A stretch of 36,309 nt of DNA from Planctomycetota bacterium (GTDB lineage Bacteria > Planctomycetota > Planctomycetia > Pirellulales > UBA1268), in assembly GCA_018970605.1 (NCBI GenBank), contig JAGWWA010000015.1, forward strand, positions 1 through 36,309, given 5' to 3'. The translations under genes were made by a program, and so were the position numbers. How positions within the stretch are numbered: position 1 is the first letter of the stretch; every line of letters begins with the position of its first letter. Positions 10,990 to 32,168 of the stretch are shown here, piece after piece. The notes beneath the pieces are model-generated. The model was not told where the DNA came from and ran no database searches. It was given only the letters and a program-made list of their open reading frames with translations.

Positions 10990-11010
10990 CCCGCTTGGCC
11001 GCTCAGCGGG
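10990..11010. terminator. Possible bidirectional hairpin between tRNA-Leu and the converging secreted-protein gene
   Basis: Inverted repeat CCCGCT / AGCGGG (6 bp, 9-nt loop), 12 nt after the tRNA and overlapping the stop codon of the converging gene at 11003. The position suits transcription termination in both directions. There is no T-run on either side, so the call is weak. Confidence 0.3.
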
Positions 11011-16702: not shown

Positions 16703-17014
16703 TCATCCTTGCAGCATCCTCGATCGGGCGAGGGCGTCTTCGGCTTCGGGAATCATCCCTGCCCGCATACAGGCGACGCTGAGTGCCGTGAAGCTAAACG
16801 GATCCTTCGGTTCCAGTTCCACCACCCGCCGCGCGTGCCGTACCGCATCCTGATGCCGCTCCAGCCTGGTGCACCACGCGGCCAGGGCGGAATGGGCGAG
16901 GGCGAAGTCCGGGTCGTCCGCCACCACCGCCTCGAGCATGGCCACCGCTCCGGCGAGGTCGCCCGCGTCCTTGCAGCGCTCCGCGGCAGCGTATCGTTCG
17001 TCGCGAGAATCCAT
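16703..17014 (-). CDS. Small TPR protein
   Basis: 103 residues forming about two to three TPR units with little else: ERYAAAERCKDAGDLAGAVAML, then ALAHSALAAWCTRLERHQDAVRH, then FSFTALSVACMRAGMIPEAEDAL. No signal peptide or membrane segment, so probably a cytoplasmic adaptor. The ATG at 17014 has GAGGTG about 7 nt upstream; an ATG at 17056 would add 14 residues that do not extend the repeat. It converges with the large TPR gene and is divergent from lpxA. The partner is unknown. Confidence 0.75.
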   Translation of the reverse strand: MDSRDERYAAAERCKDAGDLAGAVAMLEAVVADDPDFALAHSALAAWCTRLERHQDAVRHARRVVELEPKDPFSFTALSVACMRAGMIPEAEDALARSRMLQG

Positions 17015-17242
17015 GGTCAGCACCTCGGGTCGGCAGGGTAGCCGGCTGGCAGTCATGCCGTCCGACCTCGCGAGTATAGGGCCACGGCGGAGCCTGGGGA
17101 GACTGGGAGGGCGAACCCGCTACGGACGACGGGGGGAGCCGGGAAGGGTGTCCGCCCGGTGTGAAACTGGCATTGAATCCAGCCGCCCGTCGAGCCGATA
17201 AACCCACGGTTTCCCACGCCATGCTGCATTGAAAGGGGCCCC

Positions 17243-18091
17243 GTGAGCATCCACCCGATGGCCGTTGTGAGCCCGGATGCACGACTTGGGGTCGGCGTGA
17301 AGATCGGGGCCTTCGCCACCGTCGAAGACGACGTCGAACTCGGCGACTTCTGCACCGTCGCCAGCGGGGCGGTGATCAAGGCGGGCGTGAGCGCCGGATG
17401 CCACAATGAGTTTCTCGAGCATGCGGTGATCGGCGGCGCACCGCAGCATGTCGCACGACCGCAGCAGATCGGCCGCGTGCGGATCGGCGACCACAACGTC
17501 TTTCGGGAGCACGTCACCATCCACCGCGCCCTGAAGACCGGCACGTTCACGCTCGTCGGCGATCACAACTACGTGATGGCAGGGACACACTTCGGCCACG
17601 ATGTCGTCGTCGGCAGCAACTCCATCTTCGCGAACGGGGCCCTGCTGGGCGGCCACGTGACGATCGAGGACCGGGCGTTCGTGTCGGGCGCCGTCGCCGT
17701 GCACCAGTTCTGCAGGGTCGGAAGGCTGGCCATGGTCGGTGGCCACGCCCGCATCGTGCAGGATGTGCCTCCGTACATGCTCGTCGATGGCCAGACCGGT
17801 TGCATCGTCGGCCTGAACGTCGTCGGCCTGCGGCGGAGCGGGCACGCCGCCGAGGACATCGCCGAACTGAAGGCGGCCTATCGGGTGGTCTATCGCCGCG
17901 GACTCCCGTGGAAGGAAGTGCTCGACGTGCTCGATCAGGAGTTCGCGAGCGGCCCGGTGCGGCACCTGCGGCAGTTCCTCTCGGGCGGCAGCCGCGGCTT
18001 CGCCCAGGAGCGGCGGGTGCCTCCATCCACGACCCTGCGGCTGCGTGTGCCCGAGGAAGAGGCTGCCATCATCCGGGCCCGCGCCGGCTGA
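17243..18091 (+). CDS. lpxA: LpxA-like acyl-[ACP]-UDP-N-acetylglucosamine O-acyltransferase
   Basis: Left-handed beta-helix acyltransferase of 282 residues that, by family, adds the first 3-hydroxyacyl chain to UDP-GlcNAc in lipid A synthesis. Hexapeptide repeats start at residue 1 (IHPMAVVSPDARLGVGVKIG). The active-site strip THFGHD has H116 and H119, matching E. coli H122 and H125. The block AVAVHQFCRVGRLAMVGG and QDVPPY are also conserved. The C-terminal helical part is longer and more divergent than in E. coli (262 aa). The GTG start is fixed by AAAGGGG at 17232-17238. No lpxD, fabZ or lpxC lies nearby, so a related acyltransferase role cannot be excluded. Its 3' end is 3 nt from the converging sigma-54 activator gene. 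Confidence 0.85.
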   Translation: MSIHPMAVVSPDARLGVGVKIGAFATVEDDVELGDFCTVASGAVIKAGVSAGCHNEFLEHAVIGGAPQHVARPQQIGRVRIGDHNVFREHVTIHRALKTGTFTLVGDHNYVMAGTHFGHDVVVGSNSIFANGALLGGHVTIEDRAFVSGAVAVHQFCRVGRLAMVGGHARIVQDVPPYMLVDGQTGCIVGLNVVGLRRSGHAAEDIAELKAAYRVVYRRGLPWKEVLDVLDQEFASGPVRHLRQFLSGGSRGFAQERRVPPSTTLRLRVPEEEAAIIRARAG

Positions 18092-18094: not shown

Positions 18095-19258
18095 TCACTC
18101 CGCGGCCTCTTCAGACCCGCTGACTTCGTCGAGGCCATACCGCTCCAGTTTGCGGCGAAGCACCGAACGGTCGATGCCCAGCAACTTGGCCGCGAGCGAC
18201 TTGTTTTGCATGGTGGCGGCGAGCGTCTTTTCGAGGTGCATCCGCTCGACGTCCGCAAGCGTCGGCCAGGAGTCAGCCGTCGAAGCCTCGGCAGTAGCCG
18301 CCGGCTGGCCCTGAGGCTTGGCGGTTTCGGGGGCGACTTTCGGCTCCACCCGGTAGACACCCGGCAGCGGCGTCGCTGAGACGATACCGCGGGTCGCGGC
18401 CATCGCCATCTGGGCGGTGCTGCCCTGCGTCGGCGGCTCACCCGGGACGCCGCCCACCATCAGCCCCGACAGGGCATCGGGGTCGATGTGGTCGCCCGAG
18501 GAAAACATCACCGCCCGCTCGAGCACATTCTCGAGTTCGCGGACGTTGCCCGGCCACGAATACTGCTGGAGGATTTTGGTGGATTCCGGCGACAGGGCGC
18601 ACATCGGCATCCCGTGACGGGCGGAAAGTTCGGCCAGGTAGCGGGTGGCGAGCACCGGCACGTCCTCGATCCGCTCCCGGAGCGGGATCGTGCGAATGGC
18701 GACCACGTTCAGCCGGTAAAAGAGATCCTCGCGAAAGCGGCCGGCCTGCACCTCGGATGCGAGATCGCGATTGGTGGCCGCCAGCACCCGCACATCGACC
18801 GGAAGTTCCGCGTGGCTGCCAACAGGAACGACCACCCGCTGCTGCAGCACCCGCAGCAGTTTCGCCTGCAGTTCGAGTTCCATTTCCCCGATTTCGTCGA
18901 GGAAGATGGTGCCCGAGTCGGCGGCGCGGAAGCAGCCCAGCGTCGACGACGTGGCGCCCGTGAACGACCCCTTCACGTGCCCGAACATGTGGCTGGCGAA
19001 CAGCGTGCCGGTCGTCACCGCGCAGTCGACGGGAATGAAGGCCTTTTTCGAACGCATGCTGCAGGCGTGAATGGCCCGCGCGATCAACTCCTTGCCCGTC
19101 CCGCTGGGGCCGAGGATCAGCACGCTCGACTGGTGCACCGCCACCAGTTCGATCGACCGCCGAACCTGCTCGGCCCACGGCGATATCCCGACGATCCGCT
19201 GGATGGCGTCGTTCCCTGGCGACGTGCTGGCAACCGTCTCCATGGGAATGTCCGACAT
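18095..19258 (-). CDS. Sigma-54-dependent transcriptional activator without a receiver domain
   Basis: 387 residues. A leader of only about 20 residues precedes the AAA+ sigma-54 interaction domain. Visible motifs are Walker A GPSGTGKE (50-57), the sigma-54-contacting loop as GSFTGA (97-102, usually GAFTGA), and Walker B GTIFLDE (116-122). An arginine-finger region (FREDLFYRLN) and WPGNVRELEN follow. The C-terminal 45 residues form a Fis-type helix-turn-helix (KSLAAKLLGIDRSVLRRKL). An Ala/Pro-rich linker of about 90 residues separates the two. No receiver, PAS, GAF or V4R sensor is present, so control must come from expression level, a partner protein or the linker. It is divergent from the chemosensory operon, which suggests but does not prove that the operon is its target. 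Confidence 0.92.
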   Translation of the reverse strand: MSDIPMETVASTSPGNDAIQRIVGISPWAEQVRRSIELVAVHQSSVLILGPSGTGKELIARAIHACSMRSKKAFIPVDCAVTTGTLFASHMFGHVKGSFTGATSSTLGCFRAADSGTIFLDEIGEMELELQAKLLRVLQQRVVVPVGSHAELPVDVRVLAATNRDLASEVQAGRFREDLFYRLNVVAIRTIPLRERIEDVPVLATRYLAELSARHGMPMCALSPESTKILQQYSWPGNVRELENVLERAVMFSSGDHIDPDALSGLMVGGVPGEPPTQGSTAQMAMAATRGIVSATPLPGVYRVEPKVAPETAKPQGQPAATAEASTADSWPTLADVERMHLEKTLAATMQNKSLAAKLLGIDRSVLRRKLERYGLDEVSGSEEAAE

Positions 19259-19454: not shown

Positions 19455-19470
19455 TGGCCCGCGTGTCGCC
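19455..19470 (+). promoter_or_regulatory. Candidate sigma-54 promoter upstream of the chemosensory operon
   Basis: TGGCCCG-CGTG-TCGCC has the strict GG-N10-GC spacing and matches the -24/-12 consensus TGGCACG-N4-TTGCW at 9 of 12 defined positions. Transcription would begin near 19481, leaving a leader of about 65 nt before the ATG at 19546. The divergent neighbour is a sigma-54 activator, which supports the idea. In DNA this GC-rich a match of this quality can occur by chance. The 287-nt intergenic region holds no other gene. Confidence 0.3.
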
Positions 19471-19545
19471 CGGTCAGGAAAGATGGACAAAGATTGCAGG
19501 AGGTCCGCGGGCCATCCGCGACCCCTCCTTCCACCGCAGCGCATC

Positions 19546-20847
19546 ATGCCGCCCTCCCCAGCCGCCCGCCACATCGCCCGCTGGCTCGCGATCATCGCGT
19601 GCCTGGCCGCGCTTGGGGTGGCTTGGCTGCTCCTGGACCGTTTCCTCGTGAACCGTCGGCCCATCCTCGTCGGCCTGCTCCACTCGCAGACCGGGGCGAT
19701 GGCGGTCAGCGAACGGTCGATGATCGACGCGGAGCTGCTGGCCATCGACGAGATCAACCGCCGCGGGGGGCTGCTGGGGCGTCCGGTCAAGGCGGTGATC
19801 GCCGACGGCGAATCGAACTGGCCGACGTTCGCCCTGCGGGCCGAGGAACTGATCCGCGAACAGCACGTGGACGTGATCTTCGGCTGTTGGACCAGCGCCT
19901 CCCGAAAGAACGTGCTGCCGGTCGTCGAGGCCCACGATCACCTGCTCGTCTACCCGATGGCCTACGAGGGGCTGGAGCAGTCGCCGAACATCATCTACAC
20001 GGGGGCCGCCCCCAACCAGCAGATCACCCCGGCGGTCCAGTGGTGTCACGACACGCTCCGGGCCCGACGCTTCTTCCTGGCGGGCTCCGACTACATCTGG
20101 CCGCACTGCGTCAATGCCATCATCACCGACCAGCTCAAGGGGCTCGACGCGGAACTCGTCGGTGAGGCGTACCTCGATTTCGGCAGCACCGACGTGGACG
20201 AACTGGTGGCGCGGATCGTGGCCACGAAGCCCGACGTGATCCTCAGCACGGTGGTGGGTGATTCGGCCCTGCCATTCGCCCGAGCCGTGCGCGCCGCCGG
20301 GATGACGCCCGAGACCACGCCGATCGTGACCTTCGCCGTGGGCGAGCACGAACTGCGACAGCAGGCCGCCGACATGGCCGGCAACTACGCCGCCTGGAAC
20401 TATTTCCAGAGCATCGACCGGCCCGAGAACCTGGCCTTCGTGCGGGCCTTCAAGGCCCGCTACGGCGTGGAGCGCACGACGTCCGACGTCATGGTGGCCG
20501 CCTACAACAGCGTGATGCTCTGGGCGCAGGCGGTCCGCGAGGCGGAGACGCCCGACGTCCGCCCGGTTCGCAACGCCATGCGGCACCAGAGCATGAACGC
20601 CCCCGAGGGGATCATCGCCGTCGATCCCGAGACGCAGCACACCTGGCGGCCGGTGTTCATCGGACAGGTTCGCAGCGACGGCCAGTTCGACATCCGTTGG
20701 CAGAGCCGAACGGCGGTCCGTCCGGTGCCCTTCCCGATCTCGCGTTCCCGGCCGGAGTGGGAGGCGTTCGTGAACGACCTGCAGCGGTCGTGGGGCGGCC
20801 AGTGGGGCAAGCCGGTCGGCGCGGCGGCGCGGGGGACGACTCCATGA
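19546..20847 (+). CDS. Membrane-anchored UrtA-like (urea/short-chain amide) substrate-binding protein
   Basis: 433 residues. A signal-anchor (residues 11-30, ARWLAIIACLAALGVAWLLL) precedes a type I periplasmic binding fold of the urea/amide group (UrtA, FmdD, AmiC). Characteristic blocks are VGLLHSQTGAMAVSE, AIDEINRRGG, DGESNWPTFA, FGCWTSASRKNVLPV, YPMAYEGLEQSPNI and TGAAPNQQ. There is no lipobox, and no permease or ATPase genes lie nearby, so it is probably a sensor rather than a transporter component. Its TGA overlaps the ATG of the MCP (ATGA), implying translational coupling and paired function. An in-frame ATG at 19483 is the alternative start; 19546 is preferred because it places the anchor at the N-terminus. 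The ligand is not established; a urea- or amide-like molecule is the family-based guess. Confidence 0.85.
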   Translation: MPPSPAARHIARWLAIIACLAALGVAWLLLDRFLVNRRPILVGLLHSQTGAMAVSERSMIDAELLAIDEINRRGGLLGRPVKAVIADGESNWPTFALRAEELIREQHVDVIFGCWTSASRKNVLPVVEAHDHLLVYPMAYEGLEQSPNIIYTGAAPNQQITPAVQWCHDTLRARRFFLAGSDYIWPHCVNAIITDQLKGLDAELVGEAYLDFGSTDVDELVARIVATKPDVILSTVVGDSALPFARAVRAAGMTPETTPIVTFAVGEHELRQQAADMAGNYAAWNYFQSIDRPENLAFVRAFKARYGVERTTSDVMVAAYNSVMLWAQAVREAETPDVRPVRNAMRHQSMNAPEGIIAVDPETQHTWRPVFIGQVRSDGQFDIRWQSRTAVRPVPFPISRSRPEWEAFVNDLQRSWGGQWGKPVGAAARGTTP

Positions 20848-22853
20848 CGACGGGCGATGGCGGAAGCGTTCTGCGGCGGTCGATCGCCGGGCGGCTGCTG
20901 TTCTGGTTTCTGGTGATCGCCCTGATCCCGTGCGCGATCCTCACGGCGATCACGGCGCGGATCGCGGCCTCGGCGCTTCAGAAAGCCGTCCGCGACAACC
21001 TCGTGCAGATCGCCGCCGGCAAGGCCAACGAACTCGAAGCCTACGCCTCGGAGCGGGTCCGCGACTGCGCCGCCTTCGCCCGCGGCCCCACCTTCACCGC
21101 CGCCGTCAGCGACCTCACGAAGGTCGCCGCGGCCGGGGGCGATCTCCACCAGGCCGGAGGCGGACTCCGCGACTACTTCCTCTACGTGGCGAAGGCTTTC
21201 GACTATGCCGACTTGCTGCTGATCGACCTCGACGGACGCGTGATCTTCTCGCTCGCCGAGTCGATCCCCTGCGGATCATCCGTGACCGGCGGGGCGTTGG
21301 CATCGTCGGAACTCGCCATCGGCTACGACCGCGCCCGCACGCTCCTGCAGTCGGATCTCTGCGGATTCCAGGCCTATGGAAAGTCGGCCGACCCCCTGGC
21401 GTTCGTCACCTGTCCGGTGTTCGACGAGGGCCGGGTGACGGGCGTGCTCGCGCTGGGCATCGGTCCCCACCGCATCTGGAAAATCCTCTCCGACCTGACC
21501 GGGCTGGGTGACACCGGCGAAATCGTCACCGGTGAACTCTCGGGCAACGCCGTGATGATCACCACCCCGCTGCGGCATGCGACCAACGCGGCGTTCCGCA
21601 TGAAGATTCCGCTGGCCTCGGCACAGGCCACGGCAACCCAGAAGGCGGCCGCCGGCGACCGCGGCTACGGCGAGGCGGTCGACTACCGCGGAAAGGACGT
21701 GGCCGCGGCCTGGTGCTATGTGCCGAGTTTCCGCTGGGGCCTGGTGGTCAAGCAGGACGCCGACGAGGCGTACGGGCTGGTGCGGTTCCAACGGCTCGCG
21801 GTGATCGGCCTGTCGCTGGCCACCATCCTCGGCGTGACCGCCGCGGCCCTCGCGGTGGCCCGGTCGATCTCCACGCCGATCCGCACCGCGGTCGCCGTGG
21901 CGAATCAGGTGGCCGGTGGCGACCTGAGGGCGGATGTCGGCGACACGGCGGACGACGAGACGGGCGCGCTCCTCGGCGCGATCCAGACCATGACCAACGA
22001 CCTGCGCGGCCTGATCGGCAGGATCCAGCACTCCTCCGTCGCCCTGATCTCCACGGCGACCGCGATCCAGGCGACGGCCAGCGAGCAGCAGCAGGTGATC
22101 GCCGACTATGGCGCCTCGACGAGCCAGGCGGTTGCCGCGGTCAAGGAGATCTCGGTGACCAGCCAGGAACTCCTCCGGACCATGACCGAGGTCAACGACA
22201 TGGCGGGCCACACCGGCAGGATGGCCGCCGACGGCCGCGTGGGCTTGGCGGGCATGGATGGCACCATGCGGCAACTGGCCGAGAGCACGTCGTCATTCGG
22301 CTCGAAGCTCGCCGTGATCAGCGAGCGGGCCGCCAACATCAACCTCGCCGTGACCACCATCACCAAGGTGGCCGACCAGACCAACCTGCTCTCGATCAAC
22401 GCCGCGATCGAGGCCGAGAAGGCGGGCGAGTACGGGCTCGGCTTCCTGGTGGTGGCCCGCGAGATCCGCCGCCTGGCCGACCAGACGGCGGTCGCCTCGC
22501 TCGACATCGAGCGGATGGTCAAGGAGATGCAGTACAGCGTCTCGGCCGGCGTGATGGAGATGGACAAGTTCGCCGAACAGGTGCGGACGGGTGTCCGCGA
22601 GATTGGCGACGTCTCGGCGAAGCTCACCGAGATCATCACCGCCGTGCAGGGCATCTCCGGTCGATTCGGCCAGGTGACGGAGGGCATGCGGGCCCAGTCG
22701 CAGGGCGCCGAGCAGATCCGCGAGGCGATGATCCGCCTCGCCGAGGGCGCGGCCCGCACCGCCTCGTCGCTCAACGACTTCAACGGCGCCACGGTCCACC
22801 TCCGCGAAGCCGTCGGTGATCTCAAGGAGGAGGTCTCCCGCTTCACCATCTGA
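20844..22853 (+). CDS. Methyl-accepting chemotaxis protein, WspA-like signalling domain with Cache-like sensor
   Basis: 669 residues. TM1 is at about 18-38 and an extracytoplasmic region of about 280 residues follows. In it, DYADLLLIDLDGRVIFS (120-136) and GVLALGIGP (200-208) look like a double-Cache fold. TM2 is at about 318-338, then HAMP (338-392) and a long coiled-coil signalling domain. The hairpin tip region is KVADQTNLLSINAAIEAEKAG, then GLGFLVVAREIRRLADQT and IERMVKEMQ. That tip wording closely resembles WspA. Pseudomonas WspA, by contrast, has a four-helix-bundle sensor, so the input domain differs here. There is no C-terminal CheR-docking pentapeptide. The ATG overlaps the stop of the substrate-binding protein gene, making direct sensing of the ligand-bound binding protein plausible. 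Confidence 0.92.
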   Translation: MTTGDGGSVLRRSIAGRLLFWFLVIALIPCAILTAITARIAASALQKAVRDNLVQIAAGKANELEAYASERVRDCAAFARGPTFTAAVSDLTKVAAAGGDLHQAGGGLRDYFLYVAKAFDYADLLLIDLDGRVIFSLAESIPCGSSVTGGALASSELAIGYDRARTLLQSDLCGFQAYGKSADPLAFVTCPVFDEGRVTGVLALGIGPHRIWKILSDLTGLGDTGEIVTGELSGNAVMITTPLRHATNAAFRMKIPLASAQATATQKAAAGDRGYGEAVDYRGKDVAAAWCYVPSFRWGLVVKQDADEAYGLVRFQRLAVIGLSLATILGVTAAALAVARSISTPIRTAVAVANQVAGGDLRADVGDTADDETGALLGAIQTMTNDLRGLIGRIQHSSVALISTATAIQATASEQQQVIADYGASTSQAVAAVKEISVTSQELLRTMTEVNDMAGHTGRMAADGRVGLAGMDGTMRQLAESTSSFGSKLAVISERAANINLAVTTITKVADQTNLLSINAAIEAEKAGEYGLGFLVVAREIRRLADQTAVASLDIERMVKEMQYSVSAGVMEMDKFAEQVRTGVREIGDVSAKLTEIITAVQGISGRFGQVTEGMRAQSQGAEQIREAMIRLAEGAARTASSLNDFNGATVHLREAVGDLKEEVSRFTI

Positions 22854-22866
22854 CCATCACCCCACC

Positions 22867-23334
22867 TTGCAACTCCTCACCTTCACCGTCGCCCAGCAGA
22901 CGTACGCGATCGAATCGCGGCGGGTGATCGAGGTCTTGCCTCTCGTGCCGGCGCGGCTGATCCCGCACGCCCCCGATTACGTTCGCGGAATCTTCACCTA
23001 CCGCGGCCGGCTCGTGCCGCTGGTGGATCTCGCCCTCCGGCTGGCGGTGGGACGGATCCAGGAGCGGCTCAGCACCCGGGTGATCGTCGTCGAATACGCC
23101 GCGCCGGGTCGCGAGCCGCAGCAGCTCGGCCTCGTCGCGGAAAACGTGATCTCGGTCTGCTCCGCCGAGGAGGCCGACGCCTCGCTGCCCTCGCTCGAGT
23201 TTCACGACGCCCCGTTTCTCGGCCGCATCCTCCGCATCGGGGGCCGCACGATCCAGCTGCTCGAGGTCGAGCGACTGCTTCCCCCCGACGTGGCGTCCGG
23301 GATGTTTCCCGCCAGCCCGACGGTGCCCACATGA
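22867..23334 (+). CDS. CheW-like adaptor (WspB-like)
   Basis: A single CheW domain of about 155 residues: QLLTFTVAQQTYAIESRRVIEVLPL opens the fold, RGIFTYRGRLVPLVDLALRL is the core, and IQLLEVERLLPPD closes it. It would link the MCP to CheA. The start is uncertain: TTG 22867 begins exactly where CheW homology begins and lies 13 nt after the MCP stop. GTG 22816 would overlap the MCP gene and add 17 Ser/Pro/Arg residues. Its stop overlaps the next ATG as ATGA. Position two after the MCP matches wspB. Confidence 0.85.
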   Translation: MQLLTFTVAQQTYAIESRRVIEVLPLVPARLIPHAPDYVRGIFTYRGRLVPLVDLALRLAVGRIQERLSTRVIVVEYAAPGREPQQLGLVAENVISVCSAEEADASLPSLEFHDAPFLGRILRIGGRTIQLLEVERLLPPDVASGMFPASPTVPT

Positions 23335-24590
23335 ACGTCGAGGCCGCCGTCAGCCTGCTGCGGGACTGGATCGGCCTGGATGCCGCCACGATCGGCACCC
23401 CGGCGCTCGCCCGTGCGATCCGGGGCCGCATGGACGCGCGAGGAATCAGCGACCCCGAGGCCTACGCGGCCGCGGTGCGGTCTGATCCAGCCGAGCGGGA
23501 CCGGCTGGTCGAGGACGTCATCGTCGCGGAAAGCTGGTTCTTTCGCGACCGGCAGGTCTTCGACTTCGTGGCCGACGTCGCCGTCACGCTCGCGCCGCTT
23601 CCAGGGCGGTCGCCGGTGCGGATCCTCTGTGCGCCGTGCGCATCGGGCGAAGAGCCCTATTCGGTCGCCATGGCGCTGCTCGACGCGGGCCTGCAGCCGG
23701 CGCAGTTCGCCATCGACGCCGTCGACGTGAGCCGGGCCGCGCTCGAGCGAGCCCACCGCGGGCGGTACTCCGCCAACGCCTTCCGCAACGCCGACGTCTC
23801 CTTTCGCGACCGCTGGTTCCGCACCGAGGGCTCGACGGCCGCCCTCGACGACCGGGTCCGCGGCTGCGTGCGGTTCGAGTGGGCGAACCTGCTGGACGAG
23901 CGATCGATGGCCGATCGCGGTCCGTACGACGTGGTCTTCTGCCGCAACCTGCTGATCTACCTCACCACGGAGGCCCGGGGACGGATGGAGCAGACCCTCG
24001 ATCGTCTGCTCCGTGCCGATGGCATCCTCGTGCTCGGCGCGGCCGAGCCACCGATCCTCAGGGGCGACTGGATCCCCGCCGGTGCGGCATCCCTGTTCGC
24101 GCTCCGCCGTGGCGTCCACCTGCATCCCGCCGCCGTTCCGGCAGCCACGCCCCCGACGCCCCCCACGAAGCCTGCCATGCCGGCACGACCCCCGGCATCG
24201 CCCGCGATGACGCCCCGGGCGCTCGCGCCAGCCCCCTCCGCCCCGGGGCGTCCGATCGACCAGCCGCCGACGCTCCGCGACGTGCTCGAGCAGGCCGGTG
24301 CGTTGGCAAACGCCCGACGGCACCTCGAAGCCCTCGAACTCTGCGAGCGAAACCGCGCGGCGCTGCCCCCGTCGCCGGAGTTGTTTTTCCTGATGGGCAT
24401 GCTGCACCAGTCACTCGGCGACCTCGATCGCGCGGAGGGCTGCCTCCACAAGACGCTCTACCTCGACGCCGCCCACGAGGAGGCCCTGCTGGCCCTCGCC
24501 CTCCTCGCCCGCCAACGCGGTGACCTCCGCATGGCCGAGACCTACCGACAGTCGGCCGCCCGCGTGTTCGCCAGAAAGGCGTCGTCATGA
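23331..24590 (+). CDS. CheR methyltransferase with C-terminal TPR (WspC-like)
   Basis: 419 residues. The CheR N-terminal helical domain (1-75, with ESWFFRD at 67-73) and SAM-dependent methyltransferase domain are present. The SAM-binding block is ILCAPCASGEEPYSVAMAL (98-116), and DVVFCRNLLIYLT is the later signature. A Pro/Ala linker (about 245-305) leads to TPR units (about 310-412). It should methylate glutamates on the neighbouring MCP. A CheR with C-terminal TPR is the architecture of WspC and of other CheR proteins of non-flagellar pathways. It overlaps the preceding gene by 4 nt and the next gene by 4 nt, so translation is tightly coupled. Confidence 0.93.
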   Translation: MNVEAAVSLLRDWIGLDAATIGTPALARAIRGRMDARGISDPEAYAAAVRSDPAERDRLVEDVIVAESWFFRDRQVFDFVADVAVTLAPLPGRSPVRILCAPCASGEEPYSVAMALLDAGLQPAQFAIDAVDVSRAALERAHRGRYSANAFRNADVSFRDRWFRTEGSTAALDDRVRGCVRFEWANLLDERSMADRGPYDVVFCRNLLIYLTTEARGRMEQTLDRLLRADGILVLGAAEPPILRGDWIPAGAASLFALRRGVHLHPAAVPAATPPTPPTKPAMPARPPASPAMTPRALAPAPSAPGRPIDQPPTLRDVLEQAGALANARRHLEALELCERNRAALPPSPELFFLMGMLHQSLGDLDRAEGCLHKTLYLDAAHEEALLALALLARQRGDLRMAETYRQSAARVFARKASS

Positions 24591-25309
24591 TCGACCGCAC
24601 ACGCCACGACGTTCCGGTGGTGACGGCACCGATGCCCGAGTGCTGGCGGGTGATCGGGGTGGCCGGCGACCGCAGCTGCCCCGAACTGCAGGCCTTCGTG
24701 CACTGCCGAAACTGCCCGGTGCTCGCGGAGGCGGCGCGGTCGTTCTTCGACCGGCCTGCTCCGGAGGGCTACCTCGACGCCTGGCAGGCGATCCTGGAGG
24801 AGCCGACGGAGACGGCGGAGGGCGCGGACACCAGCGTGCTCGTGTTCCGCGTCGATCACGAGTGGCTGTCGCTGCCGACGGGGGCGCTCGTGGAAGTGAC
24901 GCCATCTCGCACGCTTCATTCGGTACCGCACCGGCAGGGGACCGCCCTGGCCGGCATCGTCAACGTCCGCGGCCAGTTGCAGCTCTGCGTGTCGCTGCAC
25001 GCGGTGCTCGGGCTGCCGGGCGGGCCGCAGGCAACCGCGGCGCACCCCGGTAGCCCCGCGGACGGCGCTGGCAGGCTGATCGTGCTCGAGCGGGCCCAGG
25101 GACCGGCGGCGGAGCGATGGGTGGTCGGCGTCGACGAGGTCGCAGGCGTGCATCGCGTCGGCAGGGCCGATCTCCGGCCGGTGCCCTCGACGGTGAGCCA
25201 GGCCGCGGCCCGCTGCTCGTCGGCGCTCTTCGAGTGGCAGGAGCGGACGGTCGCCCTGCTCGACGAAGTCCGCCTCTTCGAGGCGCTGCGCGAAGCGGTG
25301 TCGTCATGA
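24587..25309 (+). CDS. CheW-like adaptor with N-terminal four-cysteine motif (WspD-like)
   Basis: 240 residues. The first 55 residues are not CheW-like. They carry CWRVIGVAGDRSCPEL and HCRNCPVL, with cysteines at 19, 31, 40 and 43 (C-x11-C-x8-C-x2-C). A CheW domain (about 83-235) follows, including VLVFRVDHEWLSLP, GIVNVRGQLQLCVSL and a final VALLDEVRLFEAL. The Cys-bearing N-terminus, as I recall it, is a hallmark of WspD. The cysteines could bind a metal or respond to redox state, which is inference. The second CheW between CheR and CheA matches the wsp order exactly. Confidence 0.9.
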   Translation: MIDRTRHDVPVVTAPMPECWRVIGVAGDRSCPELQAFVHCRNCPVLAEAARSFFDRPAPEGYLDAWQAILEEPTETAEGADTSVLVFRVDHEWLSLPTGALVEVTPSRTLHSVPHRQGTALAGIVNVRGQLQLCVSLHAVLGLPGGPQATAAHPGSPADGAGRLIVLERAQGPAAERWVVGVDEVAGVHRVGRADLRPVPSTVSQAAARCSSALFEWQERTVALLDEVRLFEALREAVSS

Positions 25310-25321
25310 GCGGAGGCTGCC

Positions 25322-27646
25322 GTGGCTGACGATCTGAGCGGATTCTCGATGCTCGAGCTGTTTCGGCTCGAGGCGGAGAGCCAGACGGCCGTGCTCGCGG
25401 CCGGCGTGCTTGCCATCGAGGAGTTGGAACGGTCGCCCGAGACCGTCGAGTCGATGATGCGGGCGGCGCACTCCCTCAAGGGCGCGGCTCGGATCGTGGG
25501 GCTCGATCCCGCCGTCCGTGTCGCCCACGCACTCGAAGACGTCTTCGTGGCCGCGGGGAAGGGGAGCTTCCGCGTGAAGCCGGAGCATGGCGACCGGATT
25601 CTGGCGGGCATCGACTTCCTGTCGGCGATCGCCACGTCCGAAGATGCCCTCGCCCCGACGAGCGACTGGCCGGCCCGTGCCGAGCGGCTCGTCGGTGACC
25701 TGGCGACGATGGTCACCGCCCAAGCCACGCTCGCCCAGCCGGCGTCCGCCGCCGAAGGCACGGCCTCGCGCCCGCCGGACGGCTCGGCGGCGGCCTCCAC
25801 CGCCCCCTCAAAGCCGCCAGCCACCCCGCCAGCCACCCTGCCTGTCGAGCCACCTGCCGAGCTGCCTGCCGCGGCACCGCGAGCCACGGAGCAGGCCGAC
25901 CGCGTCGTCCGAGTCTCCGCCGACAGCCTGACGCGGCTCGTGGGGCTCGCCGGCGAATCCCTGGTGGAGACGCGCCAGCTGCGACCGTTCGTCGACTCGC
26001 TGCTGCAGCTCCGCTCGACCGAAGTCGACATCTGCGACGCCATCGCCGCCCTCGACGAGAAGCTCAAGGGGGGCGACATCGCCGTCCCCGGGACGGTCAC
26101 CGCGATGCTGACCACCATCCGCGAACGCTCCGAAGCACGCCTCGCGGCGCTCACGCGGCACGTCGAGGACTTCGAGAGCTTCGCCCGCCGCAACGAAGAC
26201 CTTTCCAACCGCCTGCACCATGAGGTGATCGTCAGCCGCATGCGGCCGCTCGCCGACGGCATTCGCGGATTTCCCCGGCTCGTTCGCGACGTGGCCCGCA
26301 CGCTCGGCAAGCAGGTGAAGTTCGAGGTCCGCGGCGAACAGACGGGTGTCGATCGCGACATCCTCGACAAGCTCGAGGCGCCGCTCTCGCACCTGATCCG
26401 CAACTCGCTCGACCACGGCATCGAACTGCCGGCCGACCGCGAGGCGGCGGGCAAGTCCCCGGCCGGGACGATCCGGCTCGAGGCCCGCCACCGGGCCGGC
26501 ATGCTCCAGATCACGCTCACCGACGACGGGCGGGGCATCGACGTGGAGCATCTCCGCGTCAAGGCGGTGGCCCGCGGCCTCGTCGCCCGCCAGGTGGCCG
26601 ATCACCTGACCGAACTCGAACTGCTCGAGTTCCTTTTCCTGCCCGGTTTCTCCACCAAGGACCAGGTCACGGAGATCTCCGGCCGCGGCGTCGGGCTCGA
26701 CGTCGTGCAGAGCATGGTGAAGAGCGTGGGGGGCAGCGTTCGCGTGGCCACGCAGACTGGTCGCCAGACCACGTTCACCCTCCAGCTCCCGATCACGATG
26801 TCGGTGATCCGGGCACTCCTCGTGCAGGTGGGGGGCGAGCCCTATGCCTTCCCGCTGACGCGAATCGACCAGATCCTGTTCTGCCCGGCCTCCAGCATCC
26901 GCACGGTCGAGGGGCGGCAGTACTTCGACCGCGACGGCGTCTCGATCGGGCTGGTGATGGCCTCCCAGATCCTCGAGACGACGGGGCAGCCTCCGGCCGA
27001 TCCGATGCCCGTCGTGGTGATCAGCGACCGCGGGCAGCAGTTCGGCATGATCGTCGACTCCTTCCTGGGCGAGCGGGATCTCGAAGTGCGGCCCCTCGAC
27101 CTGAGGCTCGGCAAGGTTCCCGACGTCAACAGCGCGTCGCTCCTGGAAAATGGCGATCCGGTTCTGATCGTCGACGTCGAGGACCTCGTCCGATCGATCG
27201 ACAACGTGCTCATGGGCCGCCGGCTCTCGCGCGTGGAGTTCGAGCGGATGGCGGAACAGGCCCGGCAACGGAAGCGGATCCTCGTCGTCGACGACTCGAT
27301 CACCGTCCGCGAGCTCGAGCGGCAGCTCCTCCAGGCCCGTGGCTTCGCGGTCGATGTCGCCGTTGACGGCATGGACGGCTGGAACGCGATCCGCGGCACC
27401 CATTACGACCTCGTCGTGACCGACGTCGACATGCCGCGAATGGACGGCATCGGCCTGGTCTCGCTCATCAAGGCCGACCCGGCCCGCCGGGAGACGCCGG
27501 TCGTGATCGTCTCCTACAAAGACCGCGAGGAGGACCGGCTCCGCGGCCTCGATGCGGGGGCGAACCGCTACCTCACGAAAAGCAGTTTCCACGACGAGAC
27601 CTTCGTCGATACGATCATCGATCTGGTCGGCGAGGCGACGACGTAG
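25322..27646 (+). CDS. Hybrid CheA histidine kinase with C-terminal receiver (WspE-like)
   Basis: 774 residues. The HPt domain has the phosphorylatable His50 in RAAHSLKGAAR. An Ala/Pro linker (about 135-190) follows, then the dimerisation and kinase domains (HEVIVSRMRPL, N-box HLIRNSLDHGIE, TDDGRGID, GRGVGLDVV). A CheW-like regulatory domain comes next (SVIRALLVQVGGEPYAFPL), then a receiver (650-774) with acceptor D701 in VVTDVDMPRMDG. There is no P2 CheY-binding domain, in line with CheA proteins of alternative-function pathways. GTG 25322 has GGAGG at 25312-25316. The C-terminal receiver may be a phosphate sink or relay, since no separate CheY is encoded here. Confidence 0.95.
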   Translation: MADDLSGFSMLELFRLEAESQTAVLAAGVLAIEELERSPETVESMMRAAHSLKGAARIVGLDPAVRVAHALEDVFVAAGKGSFRVKPEHGDRILAGIDFLSAIATSEDALAPTSDWPARAERLVGDLATMVTAQATLAQPASAAEGTASRPPDGSAAASTAPSKPPATPPATLPVEPPAELPAAAPRATEQADRVVRVSADSLTRLVGLAGESLVETRQLRPFVDSLLQLRSTEVDICDAIAALDEKLKGGDIAVPGTVTAMLTTIRERSEARLAALTRHVEDFESFARRNEDLSNRLHHEVIVSRMRPLADGIRGFPRLVRDVARTLGKQVKFEVRGEQTGVDRDILDKLEAPLSHLIRNSLDHGIELPADREAAGKSPAGTIRLEARHRAGMLQITLTDDGRGIDVEHLRVKAVARGLVARQVADHLTELELLEFLFLPGFSTKDQVTEISGRGVGLDVVQSMVKSVGGSVRVATQTGRQTTFTLQLPITMSVIRALLVQVGGEPYAFPLTRIDQILFCPASSIRTVEGRQYFDRDGVSIGLVMASQILETTGQPPADPMPVVVISDRGQQFGMIVDSFLGERDLEVRPLDLRLGKVPDVNSASLLENGDPVLIVDVEDLVRSIDNVLMGRRLSRVEFERMAEQARQRKRILVVDDSITVRELERQLLQARGFAVDVAVDGMDGWNAIRGTHYDLVVTDVDMPRMDGIGLVSLIKADPARRETPVVIVSYKDREEDRLRGLDAGANRYLTKSSFHDETFVDTIIDLVGEATT

Positions 27647-27666
27647 CAACGACGTAGGAAAGACCC

Positions 27667-28671
27667 ATGCGAATCGGGATCGTGAACGACCTGAAGGCGG
27701 CGTGCGAGGCGCTGCGGCGCGTGGTCGACAGCGTGCCCGACCACGAGGTGGCCTGGACGGCGAGCGACGGCGTCGAGGCGATCGCGATGGCGAAGCGCGA
27801 CCGCCCGGACCTGATCCTGATGGATCTGCTGATGCCGCACATGGACGGCGCGCAGGCGACCCGGCAGATCATGGCCACCGCCCCGTGCGCGATCCTGGTG
27901 GTGACCGCGACCGTGAGCGGCAACATCTCGCTCGTCTACGACGCCATGGGCTACGGGGCCCTCGACGCGGTCGACACGCCGATGCTCGGCCCGGGGGGGG
28001 AGGTGACCGGAGCCGGCGCCCTCGTCGAGAAGATCGGCACGATCGCGAAGCTTGTCGGGGCGACCGCCGACCCGCGGCGGGCCCGACGGGCCGTGGCGTC
28101 CTCGACTCCGCCACGGCTGCTCGTCGTGGGGGCTTCGACCGGCGGCCCCAAGGCGATCTCCGACCTCCTCTTCCCGCTGCCCCACGACTGGAACGCCGCG
28201 GTGATCATCGTGCAGCACGTCGATGTCGCGTTCGCCCCCGGGCTCGCGAAGTGGCTCGGTGACCGCACCGGCCGCGCCGTCCGCGTGGCAGAGCACGGGC
28301 AGCAACCGCTCGCCGGCGACGTGCTGCTCGCCGGCACCAACGACCATCTCGTGCTCACCAAGGCACGTACGCTCGAATACCGCCAGGAGCCCCGGGACGT
28401 CTTCTTCCGGCCCAGCGTCGACGTCTTCTTCGAGAGCGTCGCCGACCACTGGCCCCAGACCGGGACGGCCGCGCTGCTCACGGGCATGGGCCGCGACGGG
28501 GCCAGGGGGCTGATGAAACTCCGTACGCGGGGCTGGCACACGGTCGCCCAGAACGAGGCGACGAGCATCGTGTTCAGCATGCCGAAGGCGGCGATCGACG
28601 CGGGGGCGGCCTGCGAGGTGCTCGGCATCGACCGGATGTCGAGCGTGATCGCGGCCCGCATGAACGCGTAG
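27667..28671 (+). CDS. CheB-type protein-glutamate methylesterase (WspF-like)
   Basis: 334 residues. The receiver domain (1-120) has phospho-acceptor D53 in LILMDLLMP. The acidic pocket reads ND (IVND, 5-8) instead of the usual DD, a feature I also associate with WspF. The C-terminal methylesterase has the catalytic serine in VVGASTGGPK (S157), H184 in QHVD, and the aspartate in GMGRDGARG. It should reverse MCP methylation and, by analogy with WspF, restrain kinase output. The ATG has AGGAAAG upstream and lies 20 nt after the cheA stop. It is the last gene of the operon; no wspR-like GGDEF gene follows. It ends 15 nt from the converging amidase. Confidence 0.93.
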   Translation: MRIGIVNDLKAACEALRRVVDSVPDHEVAWTASDGVEAIAMAKRDRPDLILMDLLMPHMDGAQATRQIMATAPCAILVVTATVSGNISLVYDAMGYGALDAVDTPMLGPGGEVTGAGALVEKIGTIAKLVGATADPRRARRAVASSTPPRLLVVGASTGGPKAISDLLFPLPHDWNAAVIIVQHVDVAFAPGLAKWLGDRTGRAVRVAEHGQQPLAGDVLLAGTNDHLVLTKARTLEYRQEPRDVFFRPSVDVFFESVADHWPQTGTAALLTGMGRDGARGLMKLRTRGWHTVAQNEATSIVFSMPKAAIDAGAACEVLGIDRMSSVIAARMNA

Positions 28672-28686: not shown

Positions 28687-30195
28687 TCACGACGTCGTTG
28701 GCTGCGGCCCCCCCATGGCCTCGATCAGCCGCATGACGTGCAGCACGGTGGCCTCGTTGCGGCCGGGGCAGGCGATCACCTGGACGCCCACCGGCAGGCC
28801 GGCACTGCCGCGATCGGTGGCGGCGGCGGCACGGACCACCGGGTCGAGGCTCCACGGCCGGCAGCCTTGCTCCGCGGGCCCGACCGTCGTGACCGGGACC
28901 GCCCCCGCAGGCAGGTCGAGCAGATTGGCCAGCAGGCACGGCGCGGCGGCGAGCACAAGCCGCGACGCACTCCCCTGCCGCAGCGCCGGCAGGGCCGACA
29001 CGGGGCAGACCACCGCATCGCATCCCGCGACGGCGGCGCCGAATCTGGTCGCCAGGGCGTCGCGGGCGGTGATCAGGGTGGCGAGTTCCGCCGGCGTTCG
29101 TCGGCCAGTCCGCAGCACGCCCTCAGCCTCGCTCCAGCGGCCCGTGAGCCGAAGCAGGGCGGCCACGAGCGGTCGCCACCGGCGGGGCAGGCGGGCGATC
29201 GCCAGCAGGTGTCGCACGCCCCGCATCGGGCGGCTCCCGGCAAATAGTCGCCGCACGTCGTCTCCGCCGTCGGCGGCCACGATCCCGAGCAGCAGCCAGG
29301 CCGCTTCGGATGCCATCTCGCCGGGCACCCGCACGACCTCGACGCCGCGGGCGGCCAGACGCCCCACGGCGTCGCTCACCGCGCGGCGGACGGCGGGCGA
29401 AGCAGGAATGGGGCCGGCCTCGTCCCACCACGCCACCCGACGCGGTTCCGCGGAACCTGCGGACTCCGCACGGCCAACCCCGATCGCGGCGAGGGCAAGG
29501 TCGAGGTCGTTCACCGTGCGGGCGAGAAAGCCGGCGCGGGCGCGCACGGCGACGAGGTGGGGCATCGTGTTGAATCCGCCCCCGTCACCGAGGATGGCGG
29601 TTCTGGGCATGATCGTGGCGATGCCGCAGGCATGGGCGGGCTGCCGCAGGCTGCCGGCGAGGTCGTTCCCGATGGCGAGCGGCACCACCCCGGCCGCGAC
29701 GAGGGCGGCATCGCCGCCACTCGAGCCGCCGGGACCTCGGGATGCATCGAGCGGGTGGCGTGTCAGCCCCCACACGGGATTATCGGTCTCGTGGAGATAC
29801 ATCGCCTGCGGCACATTGGCCTTGCCGATCACGACGGCGCCGGCAGCCCGCACGCGGCGGACGATCTCGGCATCGTCGCTGTCGATGAGTTGGCGGCGGC
29901 TCGGAATGCCCAGCGTGGTGGAGAGCCCTCGGACGGCAAAGCACTCCTTCACGCTCACCGGCACCCCGGCCAGCAGCCCGGCGGGAGCATCCTTCGCGAT
30001 CGCTGCATCGATCGCGGCCGCCTCCGCCTCGGCTTCACGCCGCCGCAGCTGCACGAGGCCGTTGATCCGCGGCGCGAGGTCCGCGTGCCGCCGCAGACAC
30101 TCCTGCAGCACCTGGACCGCCAGCGACCGGCCCGCCGTCACCGCCCGCACGATGTCGGCGGCAGAACCGGCTGACGGCGCGCCCCGCGGCGTCAC
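28687..30195 (-). CDS. Amidase-signature-family hydrolase
   Basis: 502 residues from the chosen GTG. The Ser-cisSer-Lys triad is visible: K83 in VSVKECF, cis-Ser S158 in GGSSGG, and nucleophile S182 in NDLAGSLRQPA. The 24-residue spacing between the two serines matches the family. The usual GSDxGGS motif reads GNDLAGS. There is no N-terminal signal peptide. Family members hydrolyse amides, acyl-amides or Gln-tRNA intermediates; nothing marks it as GatA and no gatB/gatC is adjacent, so the substrate is unknown. GTG 30195 overlaps the upstream gene's TGA (GTGA), implying translational coupling and excluding the longer frame reaching 30411. Confidence 0.87.
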   Translation of the reverse strand: MTPRGAPSAGSAADIVRAVTAGRSLAVQVLQECLRRHADLAPRINGLVQLRRREAEAEAAAIDAAIAKDAPAGLLAGVPVSVKECFAVRGLSTTLGIPSRRQLIDSDDAEIVRRVRAAGAVVIGKANVPQAMYLHETDNPVWGLTRHPLDASRGPGGSSGGDAALVAAGVVPLAIGNDLAGSLRQPAHACGIATIMPRTAILGDGGGFNTMPHLVAVRARAGFLARTVNDLDLALAAIGVGRAESAGSAEPRRVAWWDEAGPIPASPAVRRAVSDAVGRLAARGVEVVRVPGEMASEAAWLLLGIVAADGGDDVRRLFAGSRPMRGVRHLLAIARLPRRWRPLVAALLRLTGRWSEAEGVLRTGRRTPAELATLITARDALATRFGAAVAGCDAVVCPVSALPALRQGSASRLVLAAAPCLLANLLDLPAGAVPVTTVGPAEQGCRPWSLDPVVRAAAATDRGSAGLPVGVQVIACPGRNEATVLHVMRLIEAMGGPQPTTS

Positions 30196-32168
30196 AGCCC
30201 GGGCTGGCCGAACACGTCGGCCTCGACGGCAGCCGCCGGCTCGCCGCCTACCGCTGCCGACCGCAGGTCCGATGCCCACAGCACACCGCCGTCCATCACC
30301 AGCCCCATGATGACGACCGCGTCGCCCGGCGCTGCTGCCGGCTCGACCCGCGAGATCACGGAGAGTTCGCGGGTCGCGCCTCCCGCCTCCGCGATCGACA
30401 CGCGGGAACACCAGTAGGGCCCGACTCGCCGCACCCCGGTAAACGTGGCCGGCATCACGACGCCGTCACCCTCGCGGCGGGAGTAGGTGAGCCAGTTCCT
30501 CGCCAGGCGGGCGAGGTCGTCGGCAAGCTCAGGCGTGGCGAGAATCCTCCCTCCGAGATCAGCCACCGCGGCTGGTGTCTCACCAAGCGGCCGCCCCGAA
30601 TCCGCGGCGACATGCTCGAGCGTGGCGAGTTCCTGCGCCGTCCGTGCGAGCTGCTTGTACCAGTCGACGAGCAGCGTCTTGCGAGTCGGGTCGGACGGAT
30701 CGGACACCGCCTGAACCGCATCGAGCGCCGAGGCGGCGTCCGCGACGGCGGCCTCGAGGCTGCCTTGGTCGAGCGGCTCCGGTTCGGGGATCACTGGAGC
30801 GATGGTCTCGAGGGCCGCGGGCTGAGCGGGCTCGAACGCCGGCTCCAGCGGTGGCTGTGGCGGGGCGATCGCAGCCAGATCATCGAGCGGCGCCGGGGCA
30901 GGCGCCGTGGCAAGGGGATCGGCACCAGCCACGGCGGCAGAATTTGTCGGTCCGTCCTCCATCGGCACTGCGGCGGCATCCTCAAGCGCCGGCTCGGCCG
31001 ACTCGGCGGTCGGGTCCATCGATGCCACCGTCTCCGGTGACACCGTCTCCGTCGACGCTGTCTCAATCTGGGCCGTGTCCGTCAGGGCTGGTTCATCGGT
31101 GGCGACCACCTGCTCAGACTCGTCGGCCGAGGGGACGGGGTCAGCGACGGGTGCCGCCGCGGCTGCATCGACCGCAGGAAGGGCGTCGAGCGACGGTGCC
31201 GTCTCGGCGAGGGGCGCCACGGGGGCGACCGCCACGGCGGAACTCCGCGGCTGCGGCAGGAGAAACGCGAGTTGGTCGGGCATCCACTTTCGGATCCCGA
31301 CCGTATCCTGCCATCCCATCCACATCAGGCCGATCAGCATGCCAAGCACGACCGGGATCGCCAGCAAACCACCAAACACGACGCCGAGCAGACCGCCAAG
31401 CAGACCCCGTTTCCGCGGCTTCCCCTTGCCCGTCGAATCGGGCGTCACGGCCACGGCCGCAGAGGCTCCGTCACCAGCCAGCGCGACCGCCCCCACGGCG
31501 GCCCCCGCGGCAGCCGCGCCAAAGTCGATGACGTCGGCCGCAGGATGCTCTCCGTCGCCTTCCGCTTCCACGGCCTCGAAGGCGGCGATCGATTCGGCCG
31601 CCTCGTCCGCCGCGTCATCCGTGTGCACGGTGCCGAACATCGGTTCCGCGGCAGGGGCAAACTCGTCGTCATTTCCATGGCCGAGTGCGTCGATGTCACT
31701 CGCCACGCTCACACCCGACTGCCCGGTACCGATCTCGATCGCTGACGAATCGTCGGTCCAGACCGAGTCGGCAGCCACGCCGGCTGTCTCGCTCATGTCG
31801 GACTGGTCGGACGGGTCGTCGGGAGCGAACACGGAGAGCGGTGTCACCGGGGCCTGCTCATCGCTCGACCCTGGCGACTCTTCAGCCGCATCGTTGAGCC
31901 AGGCGTCCACGAAGGCGTCGTCCTCCGGCGACTCGAAGCCGAGTCGATCCGGAGCTCCGTCGTCCGAACCGTCGGGGCCAGTCGCAGGATCAGCCCCCGG
32001 CTCGCTCGCCGGCAGGTCGAGTCCCGCATCGAGCGAAACGTCGTCGACCGAAAACGAGAAGCCCTCCCCCAGGTCCGCCGTCCCCTCCGACTCGAGATCC
32101 GCCCAGGGATCAAAGCCTTCGTCCTTCGCGTCGAGATCGTCGTCGTGGTTCTTGCCGTCGTCAGCCAT
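30192..32168 (-). CDS. Acidic single-TM protein of unknown function
   Basis: 658 residues. Residues 1-215 are strongly acidic (Asp/Glu/Ser/Ala), giving a disordered N-terminal tail. An Ala/Val stretch and a basic patch KGKPRKRG (248-255) precede one transmembrane segment, about 257-285 (LLGGLLGVVFGGLLAIPVVLGMLIGLMW). A Pro/Ala/Glu-rich linker follows, then a C-terminal domain (about 500-640) with TRKTLLVDWYKQL and VGPYWCSRVSIAEAGG, which looks folded. By the positive-inside rule the N-terminal half should be cytoplasmic and the C-terminal domain periplasmic. I recognise the style from planctomycetes but cannot name a family. The ATG at 32168 has a weak GGAG. It overlaps the amidase start by 4 nt. 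Confidence 0.75.
   Translation of the reverse strand: MADDGKNHDDDLDAKDEGFDPWADLESEGTADLGEGFSFSVDDVSLDAGLDLPASEPGADPATGPDGSDDGAPDRLGFESPEDDAFVDAWLNDAAEESPGSSDEQAPVTPLSVFAPDDPSDQSDMSETAGVAADSVWTDDSSAIEIGTGQSGVSVASDIDALGHGNDDEFAPAAEPMFGTVHTDDAADEAAESIAAFEAVEAEGDGEHPAADVIDFGAAAAGAAVGAVALAGDGASAAVAVTPDSTGKGKPRKRGLLGGLLGVVFGGLLAIPVVLGMLIGLMWMGWQDTVGIRKWMPDQLAFLLPQPRSSAVAVAPVAPLAETAPSLDALPAVDAAAAAPVADPVPSADESEQVVATDEPALTDTAQIETASTETVSPETVASMDPTAESAEPALEDAAAVPMEDGPTNSAAVAGADPLATAPAPAPLDDLAAIAPPQPPLEPAFEPAQPAALETIAPVIPEPEPLDQGSLEAAVADAASALDAVQAVSDPSDPTRKTLLVDWYKQLARTAQELATLEHVAADSGRPLGETPAAVADLGGRILATPELADDLARLARNWLTYSRREGDGVVMPATFTGVRRVGPYWCSRVSIAEAGGATRELSVISRVEPAAAPGDAVVIMGLVMDGGVLWASDLRSAAVGGEPAAAVEADVFGQPGL

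Follow-up and report, generated by a model that had tools for sequence, protein, structure and literature searches.

The window analysed here is a 36,309-nucleotide stretch of DNA (contig JAGWWA010000015.1 of assembly GCA_018970605.1) from a Planctomycetota bacterium, and forms part of a 2.86 Mb metagenome-assembled genome (MAG) that is 76% complete (G000). Among named genomes it is closest to planctomycete MAGs, several of which, judging by their isolate names, come from lakes. Open reading frame (ORF) calling and Pfam searches identify seven consecutive genes, all on the plus strand, that encode a solute-binding protein (SBP) followed by a methyl-accepting chemotaxis protein (MCP) and a set of Che proteins. 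Judged by sequence relationships, this operon is by ancestry a Wsp-class chemosensory system. Its genes are:

19546-20847, plus strand: membrane-anchored SBP, UrtA/AmiC-like, Peripla_BP_5 family (PF13433, 488 bits; TIGR03407, 446 bits).
20844-22853, plus strand: MCP in the WspA position, built as transmembrane segment, dCache, transmembrane segment, HAMP and signalling domain (PF02743, PF00672, PF00015; two transmembrane segments).
22816-23334, plus strand: CheW adaptor in the WspB position (PF01584).
23331-24590, plus strand: CheR methyltransferase with a C-terminal TPR-like region, WspC position (PF01739; TPR models below cut-off).
24587-25309, plus strand: second CheW (CheW2) with an N-terminal four-Cys motif, WspD position (PF01584).
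25322-27646, plus strand: CheA-REC hybrid kinase, WspE position (Hpt, HATPase, CheW and REC domains).
27667-28671, plus strand: REC-CheB methylesterase, WspF position (PF00072 and PF01339; NF009206, 421 bits against a cut-off of 342).

The gene calls confirm the number, strand and order of genes in the original prediction, which had been made from the DNA letters and their translated ORFs. Its statement that the genes mostly overlap by ATGA was slightly generous: exact ATGA overlaps occur at three of the six junctions (SBP/MCP, where stop and start overlap as described, CheW/CheR and CheR/CheW2), between MCP and CheW the overlap is 38 bp long, and gaps of 12 and 20 bp separate CheW2 from CheA and CheA from CheB. 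The SBP has a single hydrophobic segment (residues 9-36) at its N terminus and lacks a lipobox, and is therefore probably tethered to the membrane, in agreement with the signal-anchor proposed for it. The absence of transporter partners was also borne out, as a scan of the operon and of 17 flanking ORFs revealed no transporter genes (urtBCDE). Both the CheA phosphosite (AHSLKG) and its receiver Asp (VTDVDM) are present. In a survey of 49 operon-type SBP loci from relatives in the family, the complete seven-gene order recurs in 31, which argues that the arrangement is not due to chance; 14 of the 18 incomplete loci end at the edge of a contig or of the fetched sequence, and the other four (L079, L082, L085 and L086, all g3) carry SBP and MCP genes without Che genes behind them. 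The MCP gene adjoins the SBP gene in 48 of the 49 loci, the exception (L093) running out at a contig end.

The assignment of the Che proteins to the Wsp class rests on several features. Over its full length the window CheA shares 46.5-48.8% identity with its five best matches among CheAs of proteobacterial megaplasmids. In a tree of 34 CheA cores it falls into a clade of 27 (support 100/100, stem 2.3) together with the Wsp CheAs of Mesorhizobium, Azoarcus, Cupriavidus, Novosphingobium and Burkholderia. Outside this clade lie the CheAs of two further clusters in the same genome (contigs C31 and C38), the Pseudomonas aeruginosa chemotaxis CheA, a Pil-Chp CheA and a Tad-linked CheA, although long branches leave the placement of these outsiders unsure. 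The Mesorhizobium and Azoarcus clusters have the canonical Wsp order, in which the last gene, annotated as PleD-family or diguanylate cyclase, is WspR; from the MCP onwards the window follows the same WspA-F order, as had been predicted. The four N-terminal Cys residues of CheW2 are common to all five proteobacterial WspD proteins compared (C-W-x2-[IM]-G-x2-G-D-x-[ST]-C ... C-[RL]-N-C-P). The CheB loop reads NDHL in the window and NDHL or DDHL in two of three proteobacterial WspF proteins, the third having ADHL, and in the genome's other two CheBs it reads DHHL and GRHL. The resemblance of both proteins to their Wsp counterparts, noted in the original prediction, is thus upheld.

These data also bear on the idea that the operon controls flagella or provides input to other chemotaxis arrays of the genome. 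Members of the FlhA family (PF00771) occur in 58 of the 60 genomes searched, this one included, and the genome encodes five MCPs besides the two further CheA clusters. The window CheA, however, groups with Wsp and neither with the P. aeruginosa flagellar CheA nor with the other two of its own genome, and no stand-alone CheY gene is found in the operon, so that we regard this explanation as very unlikely. One of the further clusters (L125, contig C38, fetched segment 5000-24999; positions 6825-16559) encodes a CheA with a long CheW-like tail, CheW, MCP, REC-REC-CheB and CheR, and adjoins, on the opposite strand, a different REC-phosphatase-like gene. Elsewhere, a lone MCP (L126, contig C60, 2428-4524) has a signalling part similar to the one in the window MCP (253 bits) and may be a second receptor of the same array.

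The linkage of the SBP to its receptor extends well beyond the family. With ten operon SBPs as queries, named genomes yielded 295 relatives, the best 80 of which were kept. In 78 of these 80 loci the gene following the SBP encodes a homologous dCache ectodomain, and the remaining two (L174 and L229) end at contig ends; the adjacency to a receptor seen in the window is accordingly conserved. A script typed the partners as 61 MCPs and 10 hybrid histidine kinases, leaving seven without a type; Pfam identifies the partner in L214 as a hybrid kinase and that in L208 as an MCP. A CheA scoring above 500 bits against that of the window lies within the fetched flank in 26 of the 80 loci. The pair occurs in both Planctomycetota and Pseudomonadota: in other Planctomycetota (Pan216, L206; Isosphaeraceae, L231), in Methylocystis and other Hyphomicrobiales with hybrid kinases, and in Methylococcaceae with Wsp clusters (L230 and L233). 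Because the Methylocystis partner is a hybrid histidine kinase, SBP and ectodomain appear to form a unit whose output has been swapped. In Pan216 and in L234 the SBP-dCache pair precedes a second MCP and the Wsp core, which suggests that the pair was first inserted ahead of a conventional WspA and afterwards took its place.

Over 73 loci, the pairwise distances between SBPs and those between ectodomains have a correlation of 0.92. For a set of 58 loci the SBP-ectodomain value is 0.87, compared with 0.67 for the SBP and the signalling tip of the same receptor gene, and the partial correlation is 0.76, all without permutation or tree correction. In g3 the pair lies apart from the Che genes, yet its two members are still together. 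Conserved and co-varying pairing of SBP and ectodomain is thus well supported by the sequence comparisons.

Alternatively, the dCache MCP might bind its own ligand directly, with the SBP serving as an accessory scavenger or as a second, optional input. The structural model of the ectodomain (predicted local distance difference test score, pLDDT, 93.9) is a well-formed dCache domain that resembles the directly ligand-binding receptors PctA, McpH and Tlp3, and LuxQ is not among its top 50 structural neighbours. Furthermore, in five of the 13 relatives in which the operon's site was compared (g8, one of them seen in part), the MCP-CheW-CheR-CheW-CheA-CheB genes stand at the same site without an SBP gene, and the g8 genomes offer only UrtA-like SBP matches of about 41% and one 53% fragment at a contig end (G028). 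In four g8 loci (L141, L143, L144 and L153) a protein of some 290-310 residues, classed by eye as FHA-like, is encoded between CheB and the amidase gene that bounds the site, on the strand of the latter. Against direct binding speak the pairing of SBP and ectodomain across phyla and across MCP and histidine kinase outputs, and their co-variation, which exceeds that with the signalling tip; we therefore consider this alternative unlikely.

The SBP model (pLDDT 89.0) has 8tg1, UrtA and AmiC as its nearest solved folds, with identities of 46% to 8tg1 (a urea-binding protein), 41-43% to UrtA and 33-34% to AmiC; its score against TIGR03407, the UrtA model, falls below the cut-off of 493 bits. For P. 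marinus UrtA, urea binding is reported to be strongly reduced or lost when Ser122, Gln144, Tyr190 or Asn246 is mutated, and the W120A variant to be non-binding (PMC10392092). These five residues, in the order Ser122, Gln144, Tyr190, Asn246 and Trp120, map to S117, A139, Y183, V237 and W115 of the window SBP. Across the 80 named loci Ser122 is kept in 80 and Tyr190 in 79, Gln144 is replaced by Ala in 80, Asn246 by Val in 69 and is never Asn, and Phe192 is Trp in 79. By our column mapping, the pocket reads W-S-Y-A-E-Y-W-V-A, as against W-S-Y-Q-E-Y-F-N-S in UrtA. In the AmiC pocket, Y-S-Y-P-E-Y-Y-V-T, Val stands in place of Asn246 and Pro in place of Gln144: V237 corresponds to AmiC V206, A139 faces P107, and W115, W185 and A264 differ. 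Since two side chains essential in UrtA are replaced, urea is unlikely to be the ligand, and the urea part of the original urea/amide-type label fails at the residue level, the pocket appearing nearer to that of AmiC. With Val and Pro in AmiC at these two positions, a short amide or a substituted urea is our best guess, at low confidence. A function as part of a urea transporter was rejected, given the changed pocket and the lack of transporter genes found nearby. A second lineage (g7 and g11) carries Arg at the Gln144 position and Asp at the Tyr190 position, and g5 shows another pattern, implying that these pockets may accept other ligands.

The exact urea pattern occurs in a UrtA-like paralogue of the same genome (contig C91), near which the ORFs scanned contain no ATP-binding cassette (ABC) genes, and in five of eight kinase-fused SBPs of other families (L036-L043), the other three lacking it. 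Among ten long SBP fusions scanned, nine combine a protein kinase domain with Peripla_BP_5 (L036, L037, L040-L043, L258, L259 and L268) and the tenth (L275) joins the SBP to a hybrid histidine kinase. These fusions support a signalling role for the SBP family. The urea pocket of UrtA is exactly preserved in six of the ten fused SBPs and altered at a single site in two others, so that some of these proteins may be kinases that sense urea.

As a control for the pairing, 392 genomes were drawn from across the phylum. An SBP at E <= 1e-100 was present in 39 of them, and of 30 loci inspected 8 have an ectodomain partner. The 22 loci without a partner within about 1.5 kb comprise 16 SBPs with a urea pocket and 6 long, fusion-sized ORFs. 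Among the 8 partnered loci, the Ala pocket is found in the window's own locus and in L253, and the exact urea pattern in five; the SBP of the phylum-wide locus L263 deviates from that pattern only at the non-essential Phe192. The six pairs with a urea or near-urea pocket have kinase outputs in L282, L283, L285 and L287 and an MCP in L286, and in L284 only a dCache fragment was seen. Pocket and output have thus been exchanged independently. The original inference that a surface-sensing-type pathway has been rewired to a ligand presented by an anchored binding protein is supported in part, namely with respect to the Wsp core and the SBP-receptor linkage; the linkage is neither peculiar to this operon, being found in both phyla and with both types of output, nor universal, as the g8 loci illustrate. 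Two findings had been named in advance as refuting that inference, an SBP gene not conserved next to the MCP in relatives and Che proteins grouping with flagellar systems, and neither came about in the form given.

The output of the pathway also departs from the Wsp scheme. No WspR (REC-GGDEF) gene is present in the operon; with the MAG 76% complete, one may lie elsewhere. Searching with the Azoarcus WspR gave a receiver match in all 22 genomes of the genus (166.7-192.6 bits, in frames of 389-1628 residues). In each of the 12 genus genomes checked (G000, G001, G007, G008, G009, G011, G012, G013, G014, G016, G017 and G018), as well as in G028 of g8, a WspR-type receiver is fused to a SpoIIE phosphatase, and visual inspection of four of these REC-SpoIIE proteins suggests intact phosphatase and receiver motifs. 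In a tree from which one GGDEF-linked receiver (L097) was left out, the receivers of WspR, of a Burkholderia WspH-like protein and of REC-SpoIIE form one clade (100/99, stem 3.35). REC-SpoIIE genes lie within the Wsp clusters of L230 and L233, which are SBP-linked, and of G077, which has no SBP; in L228 the gene stands beside SBP-MCP-CheR-CheB, and in L234 a receiver follows CheB where the sequence ends. Across 60 family genomes, with Wsp-type CheA called at E <= 1e-120 and close REC-SpoIIE at a cut of about 216 bits that we chose (plus G041 as a partial match), both are present in 47, CheA only in 7, the receiver only in 2 and neither in 4. Fisher's test gives p = 0.008, or 0.017 when G001 is scored as having no CheA, for genomes that are not independent and without correction for phylogeny. 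A REC-SpoIIE phosphatase is thus moderately supported as the likely output.

A competing explanation keeps the SBP-MCP input as proposed and has the output run through c-di-GMP by way of an unlinked REC-GGDEF protein, which would make this an ordinary Wsp system whose genes are scattered. Of the 22 genus genomes, 19 encode GGDEF proteins, often of the REC-GGDEF type, and 17 of these 19 have exactly one; by eye, 7 of the 12 viewed have an N-terminal REC domain. Freshwater Planctomycetes have moreover been surveyed for these genes, and WspE-WspRF is annotated in all groups covered (PMC6461901); another study lists wspR, by annotation, in a Phycisphaerales MAG (PMC9119077), so that WspR does not seem to be generally lacking in the phylum. 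On the other hand, the GGDEF-linked REC bears little similarity to the WspR receiver (17 bits in the case of L097, compared with 152-282 for the REC-SpoIIE and WspR receivers, L103 and L104 giving no usable row), and by eye the GGDEF genes of G000, G005 and G016 have no in-frame REC domain. We consider this explanation rather improbable. The only GGDEF gene found in the window's genome (L096, contig C42, 1483-2589) has no receiver in frame, and several congeners have REC-GGDEF; its receiver was possibly lost or broken.

From these observations we propose for the operon a Wsp-class system in which a tethered SBP acts as the gate, with REC-SpoIIE as the most likely output, a reading that we consider probable. 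It builds on features that the comparisons demonstrate, namely the operon, its Wsp ancestry, the paired SBP and ectodomain, the altered pocket, the lack of WspR in the operon and the REC-SpoIIE family. The anchored SBP would capture a small amide-like solute, close, and in its closed form dock on the dCache ectodomain of the neighbouring MCP. Docking would alter the activity of the array of MCP, the two CheWs and CheA (WspA, WspB, WspD and WspE positions), with the signal presumably passing in this direction, and CheR and CheB (WspC and WspF positions) would adapt the array by methylation. Phosphoryl groups would pass to the CheA receiver, to CheB and, most likely, to the unlinked REC-SpoIIE, a PP2C-family phosphatase, which may then switch an anti-sigma or anti-anti-sigma partner in place of c-di-GMP synthesis. 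More tentatively, and as somewhat less than an even chance, we suggest a c-di-GMP-independent Wsp branch in which a portable SBP and dCache front end for different ligands is plugged into Wsp arrays or hybrid kinases, with the Wsp output running via REC-SpoIIE into a partner-switching sigma-factor module.

Besides the dCache fold, the g8 loci, the GGDEF proteins and the WspRF annotations described above, several observations weigh against this proposal. REC-SpoIIE is unlinked to the operon in the window's genome, where it lies beside translation genes. At the site compared in the 13 relatives, five (G001, G007, G022, G029 and G038) lack the operon altogether, the LpxA-like gene adjoining the amidase gene, and G001 and G007 nevertheless keep REC-SpoIIE. 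Conversely, the close REC-SpoIIE type was not found in g3, which has the CheA, and in G072 REC-SpoIIE adjoins a che cluster that is not of the Wsp type. Genome-wide, Wsp-type CheA at the above threshold was not found in G007, G022, G029 and G038; an incomplete Wsp CheA does lie on contig C74 of G001 in spite of its empty site, and we take this contig for a contaminant.

The site of the operon is the same throughout the family loci examined, between the LpxA-like gene and the amidase gene. The seven-gene form is accompanied by a divergent sigma-54 activator in the genus of the window and in others and lacks it in g7 and g5, and g3 (3 of the 13) has only CheW-CheR-CheW-CheA here, with the SBP-MCP pair elsewhere in the genome. 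An amidase-signature protein (28687-30411, minus strand), the LpxA-like acyltransferase and a TPR protein flank the site with or without the operon (in the window at 28687-30411 and 16703-18091). The amidase was rejected as proof of an amide signal, for it is present in all 13 relatives, including those without the operon, and is thus unspecific. Two further features lie upstream:

18095-19258, minus strand: divergent sigma-54 activator with AAA+ and Fis helix-turn-helix domains and no receiver (PF00158, PF02954).
19466-19496, plus strand: conserved cis element upstream of the operon, TCGCccGG-N3-GGAAAGATGGRCAAAGATTG, 31 bp, with AAAGAT repeated at 10-bp spacing.

The activator was not found at sites without the operon, nor at the g7, g5, g8 and g3 sites. 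A regulatory link to the operon can only be inferred, and a role as obligate regulator was rejected, as the loci of these four keep the cis motif. This element, a putative promoter or regulator site, has no other match in its own genome at up to three mismatches (reversed control, 0), and its 20-base core did not occur in 100 shuffles of the window. Of 63 loci scanned, 38 have it ahead of the operon, among them those of g8, which lack the SBP, and of g3, which comprise SBP and MCP only; two further matches (L082 and L150, both on the minus strand) were judged spurious, and some loci end before the upstream stretch. It was rejected as a sigma-54 promoter, the GG-GC spacing being one base short of the consensus and the C variable.

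Compared with the surface-sensing Wsp system of Pseudomonas (WspABCDEFR), using the Wsp systems of other Proteobacteria, the window shares the MCP-CheW-CheR-CheW-CheA-REC-CheB order, the CheA clade and the four-Cys WspD. It differs in that its receptor has a dCache_1 domain, in contrast to 4HB_MCP_1 in two proteobacterial WspA proteins, and in that an SBP gene stands in front and WspR is missing from the operon. Its SBP differs from UrtA and AmiC in the pocket residues given above, and no ABC genes lie in the operon. In Vibrio, LuxP, a soluble periplasmic binder of autoinducer-2, is an SBP that works with the tandem PAS/dCache-type receptor LuxQ; the Methylocystis pairs of SBP and dCache hybrid histidine kinase are similar in layout, likened by description. 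The Halobacterium pairs BasB-BasT and CosB-CosT, likened in the same way, are archaeal and differ from the window in anchoring, gene neighbourhood and flagellar output. They are alike in that a binding protein works with a transducer, BasB and CosB reportedly having co-purified with taxis transducers (PMC3579733).

Burkholderia WspH (WspHRR) likewise has a Wsp core, and its WspR-type receiver is joined to an output other than GGDEF (L133), so that WspR is not universal among Wsp systems (PMC8552884). WspH carries a histidine kinase, whereas the receiver family described here carries a SpoIIE phosphatase and is unlinked. According to the same survey, which covers beta- and gammaproteobacteria, either WspR or WspH appears to serve every Wsp system (PMC8552884), and another article calls the stimulus recognised by WspA a mystery (PMC8846402). 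Among the titles and abstract openings listed by searches of the open-licence literature, none described this SBP-receptor pairing or a Wsp-SpoIIE output, which is weak evidence of novelty. The operon would represent a Wsp-class system whose ligand-capturing input can be physically identified and whose output is probably of a third kind. If this is true, the Wsp array would be a signalling core of general use, and evolution would have exchanged both its input and its output.

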